From Acidobacteriota bacterium (GTDB taxonomy: Bacteria > Acidobacteriota > Terriglobia > Acidiferrales > UBA7541): a DNA stretch of 64,000 nucleotides. Shown piece by piece: positions 40,673 through 42,149 of the stretch (positions are counted from its first letter, which is position 1; each line of letters starts with the position of its first letter). The stretch lies in contig QHYI01000103.1 in the NCBI GenBank assembly GCA_003223245.1, positions 1-64,000 of the forward strand. The letters run 5' to 3'. A model generated the notes under the pieces. The model was not told the DNA's origin. It saw only the letters and a list, made by a program, of their open reading frames with translations, and searched no databases. Position numbers and translations under genes: made by a program.

Positions 40673-40865
40673 CGCGCTCTAGCACGAAGCAGCCACCCGG
40701 GAACGCGACCCAGTAGCGGCTCATCGAACTCCGCGTCCTTTAGGACGCCAAATGCGGGAGATCCTGGATCAGCTCAAGAGCCAAAGGGCAATCAAGTGAG
40801 GCCATTCGGTCTGCTTGAGGCGCCTTGCTTGTTCCGTGGAAGCGTCGTTCAGACAGCAAACTTTG

Positions 40866-40883
40866 TCCTGTACATGTACAGGA
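40866..40883. promoter_or_regulatory. 18-bp perfect palindrome
   Basis: TCCTGTACATGTACAGGA is perfectly symmetric with no spacer. It lies 99 bp upstream of the -35 box of the candidate non-coding RNA at 41018. It could be an operator for a dimeric regulator or, if transcribed, a hairpin; no T-tract follows. Confidence 0.45.
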
Positions 40884-40981
40884 GGGATGCGGTCGGCTCC
40901 GCGGTTCCTGAAGCGTTTCAACTTTTGAACTGCTCCTTTCCCCGGGTCAAAAACCAATGCAAAACTGAACGATTTTTGCGG

Positions 40982-41010
40982 TTGACAGGCGCGGTTGGCG
41001 GTGCTACAAC
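40982..41010 (+). promoter_or_regulatory. Strong sigma70-type promoter
   Basis: TTGACA (40982-40987), a 17-bp spacer and TACAAC (41005-41010). The -35 matches consensus fully and the -10 in four of six positions. The predicted start of transcription is near 41018, in a stretch with no credible coding frame. Confidence 0.7.
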
Positions 41011-41017
41011 GCGCTGC

Positions 41018-41190
41018 AAGAGAAGCTCTTTGGCGGCGAGTCTCCTAACGAATTGCTAAGAGCAACCCGCGAGTGAGGCCGCAGACCTGCCTGGCAGGGC
41101 AGGCCTGCTGAGCCACCCGAGGGCTCCAACATGCAACACCCCACCCACCCCGGGAGGTGAAAACGCGGTTGTTTTCACCTCCTTTTTATT
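41018..41190 (+). ncRNA. Candidate structured non-coding RNA, about 170 nt
   Basis: Bounded by the promoter at 40982-41010 and the intrinsic terminator at 41153-41192. Predicted local helices: AAGAG-AAG-CTCTT at the 5' end, or alternatively GCTCTT with AAGAGC further on; CCTGCC-TGGCAG-GGCAGG; GAGCC-ACCCGAG-GGCTC; then the terminator stem. The terminator's descending arm reads CACCTCCTTT, like the 3' end of 16S rRNA, so its exposed form could contact ribosome binding sites; that is speculation. I do not recognise it as tmRNA, RNase P, SRP or 6S RNA. The acidobacterial Rfam family Acido-1 is one thing to test against. With flanking sequence it explains the 700-bp gene-free gap. Confidence 0.55.
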
Positions 41191-41192
41191 TT
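41153..41192 (+). terminator. Strong Rho-independent terminator
   Basis: Perfect 12-bp stem GGAGGTGAAAAC / GTTTTCACCTCC around the loop GCGGTT, then TTTTTATTTT. A second, smaller hairpin, GCGGCG-GCTTGG-CGCCGC, follows at 41222-41239. Confidence 0.9.
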
Positions 41193-41369
41193 GAGCGATT
41201 CTTCAACGCTTTTTTTGGGGTGCGGCGGCTTGGCGCCGCTTTGCCTTTCTTTTAGCCGCAACCTCGCCTCTTTCCCGCCGGGTAGACGCGTTTGGCTTCG
41301 GCTTCCCCTCAGTTAAGATGACCTTGCGACATTTCCGAGCATGCGTACTCGTCCGACGGAAGGAGTCCT

Positions 41370-42149
41370 GTGGCCCCACCGCTTCTCTCGCTCAAGAACG
41401 TGACCGTCATGCGCGGCGATTGCGCCGCTCTGCGGGATGTGAACCTGGAAATTGCCGCCGGGGAGCATGTGTGCATTTTGGGCCCGAACGGCTGCGGCAA
41501 GTCCACGCTCATCAAGACCATTACGCGGGAGTGCTATCCTCTGGCAGCCGACCGCTGCTCGATCTCGATTCTGGGGCGCGAGCGCTGGAACATTTTTGAG
41601 CTGCGCTCGCTGCTGGGAATCGTCTCACCGGATTTGCTCGCCTCCTGCACCACGGAAGCGACCGGGCGGGATGTGGTGCTCTCCGGGTTTTTCAGCAGCA
41701 CGCGTATTTTTCCGCACCATCATCCTGAACCGGAGCTCTTGGCGCGCGCCGAGGCCGCGCTGGAGCGGCTAGGCATCGCGCATCTTGTCAATCGGCCGGT
41801 GGCGCACATGTCTTCCGGCGAAGCCAAGCGCACGCTGATTGCGCGGGCGCTGGTTCACGGGCCGAAAACTCTTTTGTTCGATGAACCGAGCAATGCGCTG
41901 GACATCGCCGCGCAATTACAGCTTCGGGAAACGTTGCGCGAGCTGGCGCAATCGGGTCTTGGGATTTTGCTCGTAACGCACCACGTGTCCGAAATCATTC
42001 CCGAGATCGAGCGCGTGGTCTTGTTGCGCGAAGGCCGGATTCTCGCCGACGGCCCCAAGGCCACCTTCCTCACGGAAGAAACCCTGTCCAACCTCTTCCA
42101 GGCCAAGGTGCGCTTGGGCCAGCACGACGGGTATTTTCACCTTTATTGA
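41370..42149 (+). CDS. ABC transporter ATP-binding protein
   Basis: 259 residues from GTG 41370, with GGAAGGAG 5 nt upstream. Single ABC ATPase domain: Walker A GPNGCGKST (residues about 38-46), signature in modified form MSSGEAKRTLIARAL, Walker B TLLFDEPSNALD and switch His in LLVTHHVSEII. It resembles stand-alone ModF/iron-type ATPases. No permease or binding protein is adjacent, so it is an orphan subunit here and the substrate is unknown. Confidence 0.9.
   Translation: MAPPLLSLKNVTVMRGDCAALRDVNLEIAAGEHVCILGPNGCGKSTLIKTITRECYPLAADRCSISILGRERWNIFELRSLLGIVSPDLLASCTTEATGRDVVLSGFFSSTRIFPHHHPEPELLARAEAALERLGIAHLVNRPVAHMSSGEAKRTLIARALVHGPKTLLFDEPSNALDIAAQLQLRETLRELAQSGLGILLVTHHVSEIIPEIERVVLLREGRILADGPKATFLTEETLSNLFQAKVRLGQHDGYFHLY

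Follow-up and report, generated by a model that had tools for sequence, protein, structure and literature searches.

A candidate stand-alone small RNA family with a conserved C-rich linker in one family of Acidobacteriota

Acidobacteriota form a phylum abundant in soil. Within a 64,000-nt stretch of DNA from one of its members (hereafter the window), a first-pass annotation had singled out a segment running from promoter to terminator as a candidate structured RNA with several helices. Such a unit raises a simple question: is it an RNA gene in its own right, the leader of a neighboring gene, or a promoter and terminator whose transcript is a by-product, and which of its parts are conserved? 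Broadly speaking, the start signal, the end signal and a C-rich stretch are kept in relatives, which suggests a real, uncharacterised regulatory RNA, and comparison of sequences gives strong support to a small-RNA family with a candidate transcript and function.

The promoter originally read here (TTGACA, 17 bp, TACAAC) was confirmed and found to carry an extended −10 TG as well, and the perfect 12-bp intrinsic terminator likewise held up (41153–41182; all features are listed in Table 1). A generic promoter scan listed no promoter at this place, as it required the −10 box to end in T. In a set of 63 distinct RNAs drawn from eight genera, TTGACA occurs in 61 and TGnTA in the −10 zone in 60, at −35/−10 spacings of 17 (43 RNAs), 18 (12) or 16 (8), promoters and spacings being those picked by a script at most 230 nt upstream. 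A full-length covariance model (R2) scored the RNA of the window at 192.5 bits (41017–41193), this copy being one of the sequences from which the model was built. Judged by sequence only, the RNA has both its own promoter and an intrinsic terminator, as a trans-acting small RNA would. Two further elements lie upstream. A T-rich stretch (GATTTTTGCGG and variants, 40970–40981) abuts the −35 box, is kept in many loci of the same genus (g1) and resembles an UP element; a perfect 16-bp palindrome, CCTGTACATGTACAGG (40867–40882), stands between a kinase remnant and the RNA promoter as a possible operator site, and is missing from all other loci compared except copies of the same place.

Table 1. Features of the candidate RNA gene, in window coordinates.
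Feature	Position	Strand	Description and basis
Promoter	40982..41010	+	−35 TTGACA 40982–40987, 17-bp spacer, extended −10 TGC-TACAAC 41002–41010 (by sequence reading, TG at 41002–41003 and TACAAC at 41005–41010); aligned in relatives
RNA gene	41017..41191	+	~175 nt; start inferred 7 nt past the −10 box, end in the U-tract
Helix P1, 5′ strand (GCUCUUUGGCGGC)	41025..41037	+	12 pairs, 89.1% of cells paired in 29 sequences (A1); two pairs with two-sided changes
Variable hairpin 2 within P1, ending in conserved CGCGAGUGAGG	41038..41080	+	Predicted fold; a 3-pair helix in this region is 94.3% paired with no two-sided changes, hence weakly tested
Hairpin P3, GCAGACCUGCC-UGGCAG-GGCAGGCCUGC	41081..41108	+	10 pairs, 94.1% of cells paired (A1); two pairs with two-sided changes
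Helix P1, 3′ strand (GCCACCCGAGGGC)	41112..41124	+	g1 alignment and predicted fold
C-rich unpaired linker GCAACACCCCACCCACCCC	41133..41151	+	Alignments; predicted unpaired at 0.99 in the RNA of the window
Intrinsic terminator	41152..41191	+	Stem GGAGGTGAAAAC (41153–41164) / GTTTTCACCTCC (41171–41182), 12 perfect pairs plus G41152-U41183; loop GCGGTT (41165–41170); U-tract 41183–41191, TTTTTATTTT; stem 98.8% of cells paired (A1)

To begin with its relatives, a BLAST search with positions 40940–41200 against 61 genomes matched 32 of them, namely the genome of the window and 31 of 35 others of the same genus, and 0 of the 25 genomes outside g1. Across 30 oriented g1 loci, the alignment holds from the promoter through the body to the terminator, if poorly in L030 and in the rows that diverge most, and breaks down in the flanks, which argues for more than chance. 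Genus g1, part of family f1, includes Candidatus Acidiferrum typicum, and NCBI places Candidatus Acidiferrum in the Terriglobia, Acidobacteriota. A pattern made of the C-rich stretch and terminator retrieved 36 contigs from a named genome collection (29 titled Acidobacteria, 3 Terriglobia, 2 Candidatus Acidiferrum typicum and 2 other), eleven of them new with respect to the first set and several with a very different 5′ body and the same 3′ end. The two other titles, Betaproteobacteria (L033) and Bacillota (L034), are probably wrong: these contigs fit a same-genus genome (G006) and a same-family genome (G277), respectively, and likely come from mislabelled metagenome bins. Across 399 genomes of the class, the exact 3′ pattern was present in 40, all from one family and with a maximum of one per genome, and the reversed-pattern control gave zero among the matches listed.

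We then turned to a covariance model of this 3′ module (linker plus terminator; R1, 37 sequences), which matched 67 of the 89 genomes of family f1 at E ≤ 1e-4, 66 of them strongly (49–85 bits) and with one strong copy each. Strong copies were found in g1 (33/36), g26 (15/20), g29 (6/6) and g25 (4/4), and among the small genera in g28, g30 and g78 (2/2 each) and g2 (2/3); they were absent from g24 (0/5), g27 (0/5), g76 (0/2), g23 (0/1) and g77 (0/1). One g1 genome scored as a miss (G021) carries a copy cut at a contig end, and three of the 23 new strong loci (in G084, G308 and G316) are not among the sequences compared below. In 329 genomes of the class, R1 matched 62 at E ≤ 1e-6, 61 of them family members and the remaining one, at 35 bits, from elsewhere in the class; in 396 genomes of the phylum it matched 32 at E ≤ 0.01, the copy of the window scoring 83.5 bits and the next 35.0, with the genome of the window the sole f1 member among the matches listed. 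Outside f1, no R1 match exceeded 35 bits in the class and phylum samples searched, and of eight such stray loci judged by eye out of nine (L127 left out), seven (L125, L126, L128–L131, L133) look like terminators right after a stop codon and L132 is ambiguous. Weak matches within the family are of a similar kind: four (L206, L207, L208, L210) look by eye like gene terminators, L209 is ambiguous, and L211 is the true copy of its genome (G002). The locus L208 (G019 C22, ~141401–141461, minus strand) holds a look-alike of the 3′ module (CTAACACCCCGGGAGGAGGTGG...CCTCCTCC) past the apparent end of a coding sequence, which may reflect chance or a related terminator style. A phage or viral origin was rejected, phage records giving no match to the RNA and viral contigs no exact match to the pattern. 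Overall, the RNA family is limited to one acidobacterial family in the genomes sampled.

Does the transcript code for a short protein? The frames around the RNA are all short (e.g., 41004–41144 on the minus strand, 46 aa, and 41157–41255 on the plus strand, 32 aa). The RNA itself contains one complete frame of at least 10 codons (12 codons), found in the same columns in 15 of 29 g1 rows, and the next best-shared g1 frame of that minimal length has common start and stop columns in 7 of 29. Complete frames of at least 20 codons of some kind exist in 31 of the 63 RNAs. No open reading frame is conserved across the 29-row g1 alignment, and the earlier reading of a segment with no credible coding frame is borne out.

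In terms of structure, the 211-nt segment of the first-pass annotation, promoter included, folds more stably than dinucleotide shuffles (z −3.63, 0 of 200 as stable), and the transcript up to the terminator, taken without promoter and terminator stem, gives a z of −2.39. The predicted organization is a helix P1 enclosing two hairpins, followed by an open linker and then the terminator. In alignment A1 (29 of the 30 g1 loci, L030 left out), five pairs of the whole structure changed on both sides, in 15 cells (0 of 500 shuffles as high), and the number of further pair types was not above that of shuffles (301 of 500 as high). Sliding the structure along the alignment left 44–55% of cells paired, with 1–4 two-sided pairs and 1–5 such cells. 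In a second alignment (A2, 37 sequences; of 43 loci, five duplicates and the truncated L021 were left out), 98.5% of the terminator-stem cells are paired. Three of the stem pairs changed on both sides, a number reached by 45 of 500 shuffles, and the 12 cells concerned were matched by 0 of 500. A third alignment (A3), from which L025, L026, L027 and L029 were dropped, enters none of the results. RNAalifold, when unaided, recovered P3 and the terminator along with a few further pairs; P1, which it did not return, is a proposal from manual reading of the alignment. The covariation term of this prediction was small (−0.93 kcal/mol). We consider this covariation support for the g1 fold modest, since related sequences can exceed shuffles without any structure. 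The homologous regions that the first-pass annotation had proposed to align thus exist, with modest covariation of their pairs, and its idea of a structured RNA with several helices gains support in the form of P1, P3 and the terminator within g1.

The most conserved element is one absent from that annotation, the C-rich stretch before the terminator. Together with the adjoining stem base, the linker reads ACCCCGGGAG in 62 of 63 RNAs, a count inflated by members found through an exact pattern, and in 20 of 20 loci from the R1 search, a model itself trained on this sequence. Its mean unpaired probability is high in g1 (0.90, 33 RNAs), g78 (0.97, 2) and g25 (0.75, 4), and lower in g29 (0.65, 6), g26 (0.63, 12), g28 (0.54, 2), g2 (0.33, 2) and g30 (0.33, 2); the length of the tract varies by several nucleotides even within g1. 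Predicted RNA lengths outside g1 span 109–208 nt, and the linker and terminator are kept while the body changes between genera, even in the two RNAs of ~110 nt, which come from two g29 genomes. Conservation of the body between genera was rejected, R2 scoring 36–70 bits on the 25 other-genus loci searched, in each case below the R1 score for the same copy; on five further g1 copies R2 was higher than R1 on three and lower on two. Also rejected, as a general feature and with g2 and g30 as possible exceptions, was a lock in which a 5′ GGUGG would pair with the C-rich linker: body-linker complementarity is not above shuffles overall (mean z +0.42 in g1, +0.83 in g26, +1.75 in g78, +0.11 in g29, +0.21 in g25, −0.17 in g28, −1.39 in g2 and −1.62 in g30), and of the five lock pairs in A1 two are invariant and none has a two-sided change, so that they say little.

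It is tempting to speculate that the RNA is a modular regulator, in which the C-rich linker and the terminator form a 3′ effector that stays fixed throughout the family and the 5′ domain is rebuilt from genus to genus, a reading that we put forward tentatively and would hold doubtful as it stands. The 5′ domain is a three-way fold in g1, two hairpins in a short closing stem in g26, and almost nothing in two g29 genomes. If this modular reading were true, the 5′ part may serve a global translational regulator as a sensor or stabiliser that can be exchanged.

A more striking string had drawn attention at first, one within a terminator arm that is identical to the anti-Shine-Dalgarno end of 16S rRNA. 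The string CACCTCCTTT is indeed present in the terminator of the window as one stem arm; it is not conserved in the family, where it occurs in 23 of 63 RNAs and CACCTCC in 38 (the truncated L021 scored as lacking both). In both g2 copies it is replaced by GCGCUCCC, and in the g2 terminator GGAGGUG becomes GGAGCGU with the partner strand changing too, so that pairing is kept. The invariance of GGAGG in A2 is partly built in, as several members were found by exact pattern, a bias from which the BLAST-found g1 members are free. An anti-Shine-Dalgarno mimic in the terminator was therefore rejected: because the stem changes with its pairing kept (98.5% of cells) and the string is not conserved, the likeness is best seen as a by-product of the stem sequence.

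Could the unit instead belong to its neighbors? A gene for an ABC-transporter ATPase (PF00005) lies downstream on the same strand (41370–42146), and a cis-acting 5′ leader or attenuator of this gene, akin to a riboswitch, would have the usual layout, with a terminator between aptamer-like helices and the gene. A same-strand ABC ATPase is found within 1.5 kb downstream in 24 of 29 g1 loci, as such a leader would have it, but is missing from the other five and was not found in any of the 30 other-genus loci (0/30, with L167 among them lacking downstream DNA; L120, which had no pattern match, was left out of the neighbor table). At several loci the next ORF downstream is encoded on the opposite strand, and the DNA past the terminator is not conserved in the aligned stretch. 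The leader or riboswitch of the ABC gene was thus rejected on synteny, no constant same-strand downstream gene being found, and we regard this explanation as strongly disfavoured and very improbable; since the downstream gene is not constant and at several loci is on the opposite strand, a cis leader of any general kind is disfavoured too. A single inspected locus in each of g25, g28, g29 and g78 has an MglA-like ORF (identified by eye) 1–3 kb downstream, and the occurrence of these ORFs in four genera suggests one ancestral place. On the other side, 26 of 59 loci (g1, g26, g28, g29) have the end of an ORF resembling a hybrid sensor histidine kinase no more than 1.5 kb upstream, with HisKA, HATPase_c and Response_reg domains in the case of L018; kinases are a large family, and these matches need not all be the same gene. 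In the window, positions 40728–40799 appear to be a remnant of a hybrid histidine kinase C-terminus that is intact upstream in relatives (TGCGGGAGATCCTGGAT..., compare L043). Taken alone, the protein match is weak (18 aa, 50%, E 0.27); the DNA of L042 and L043 was compared as well, and this locus has apparently lost the kinase gene. Such kinase ends, and a body that is not conserved between genera, would fit a scenario in which promoter and terminator alone have a function, for instance where the upstream kinase gene ends, and the transcript between them is a by-product. We find this improbable given that the g1 body is conserved with some covarying pairs, that the linker, dispensable for a terminator, is kept in every genus having the RNA, and that a dedicated promoter precedes it.

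The RNA also has no counterpart among known families, in line with the first-pass view that it matched no familiar house-keeping RNA. Rfam gave no family at gathering score in the window, nor in 13 loci whose members come from eight genera, and around the locus at E up to 10 just five chance-level matches to families eukaryotic by name. Acido-1 (RF01686) and Acido-Lenti-1 (RF01687), candidate non-coding RNAs of Acidobacteria (PMC2864571), were rejected, with no match at gathering score in the window or the 13 loci, nor near the locus at E up to 10. A divergent 6S RNA overlooked by Rfam would fit the similar length, the stand-alone gene, and the lack of an RF00013 match in the window (gathering score), around the locus (E up to 10) and in the genome of the window (E ≤ 0.001). 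Yet 8 of 12 same-genus genomes, the genome of the window being counted in the 12, have a 6S match elsewhere (two over the Rfam cut-off, G035 and G019, and six below), on the same contig as the RNA in three of the eight (G010, G022, G035) and then at least 50 kb away, and the predicted fold differs from a rod with a central bubble. That the RNA is the 6S gene of its genome was accordingly rejected, and a divergent 6S seems to us extremely improbable. RF00013 gave no match in four large g1 genomes (G000, which is that of the window, G017, G018 and G030), probably a limit of sensitivity.

These comparisons point to a unit with its own promoter and terminator, a fold within the genus, a conserved C-rich stretch, independence from neighboring genes and no entry in Rfam. 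The reading we prefer, and consider somewhat probable, takes it for a small RNA gene that stands alone, is inherited vertically within one Terriglobia family and acts in trans by pairing through its linker. An RNA of ~175 nt here would be started by its own sigma70-type promoter and ended by the intrinsic terminator; the C-rich linker beside the terminator, constant in the form AACACCCCACCC(C)ACCCC and its variants, would offer a surface for pairing with G-rich segments of mRNAs, probably close to ribosome-binding sites; the terminator with its U-tail would stabilise the RNA and may be held by a divergent Hfq-like protein, and the variable 5′ domain may tune stability or accessibility. Action in trans is what we infer by analogy with IsrR and Yfr1, which together with Yfr10 are precedents for C-rich or single-stranded motifs that serve in pairing (PMC9410917, PMC6778093). 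Of the 89 family genomes, 76 have an Hfq-family match, which passes the Pfam cut-off in 45; that of the genome of the window is divergent and falls below it (24.4 bits). In addition to the divergent version, one g1 genome (G034) appears to have another Hfq of canonical type (L183, C118:69–251; 95.5 bits).

Pairing is the step of this mechanism that we would word most carefully, and its main rival is a role in protein binding, by which conservation of the linker could equally be explained: a stand-alone RNA would bind a protein, Hfq-like or other, via the C-rich linker and terminator, and serve as a sponge or scaffold rather than pair with mRNAs. A constant C-rich tract and terminator base beside a changing body fits a protein site, and no mRNA target emerged from a complement search in 23 same-genus genomes or from start-codon k-mers in the genome of the window and a g30 genome. 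The perfect 12-nt complement GGTGGGGTGTTG occurred, besides the RNA gene itself, in 4 places in the 23 genomes vs. 9 for the reversed-pattern control. Start codons, a weak test given crude and under-called genes (473 in 967 kb), gave complementary vs. reversed 6-mer counts of 19 vs. 12 in the genome of the window (967 kb) and 20 vs. 18 in the g30 genome (398 kb), 7-mer counts of 4 vs. 3 and 8 vs. 6, and mid-gene control 6-mer counts of 10 vs. 28 and 10 vs. 13, respectively. Also against the pairing reading are the lower predicted openness of the linker in g29, g26, g28, g2 and g30, the Hfq match below the cut-off in the genome of the window, and the look-alike AACACCCCGGGAGG before a stem at what appears to be an ordinary gene end (L208), which implies that terminators can give rise to part of the motif. 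Against the protein-binding alternative, no C-rich-binding partner was identified, and a tract whose length varies within a genus is odd for a tight protein site; we judge it rather unlikely.

The small RNA reading gives one candidate small RNA of Acidobacteriota its coordinates, a covariance model and 66 strong copies in the family, with the linker as the obvious element to mutate, and separates the conserved parts (linker, terminator base, promoter) from the merely striking anti-Shine-Dalgarno string. Literature searches, judged from titles and the opening of abstracts, found no paper describing such an RNA and none devoted to small RNAs of Acidobacteriota. As for comparable systems, the motif of the cyanobacterial Yfr1 and Yfr10 presumably differs from that of this RNA. 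These RNAs resemble it in a conserved motif, single-stranded in their case and predicted to be largely so in g1 here, that is shared by otherwise dissimilar RNAs (PMC6778093, where Yfr1 is a short RNA with such a motif between stem-loops and the Yfr10 motif is common to RNAs otherwise unlike in sequence, structure and synteny). They differ in belonging to another phylum and, for Yfr1, in having tested targets, and the relation was compared by Rfam scan only. Among small RNAs with C-rich regions, RoxS/RsaE of Bacillota are of the same type as IsrR and FsrA. The latter two, also from Bacillota, are presented in PMC9410917 as having unpaired C-rich stretches and a Rho-independent terminator and as pairing with Shine-Dalgarno regions; our RNA resembles the type in combining a Rho-independent terminator with a C-rich stretch, the latter predicted to be mostly unpaired in g1. 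G-rich decoys should be commoner in its GC-richer genome than in the hosts of IsrR and FsrA, and unlike in that type the C-rich element here is a single longer, CA-punctuated C tract that abuts the terminator.
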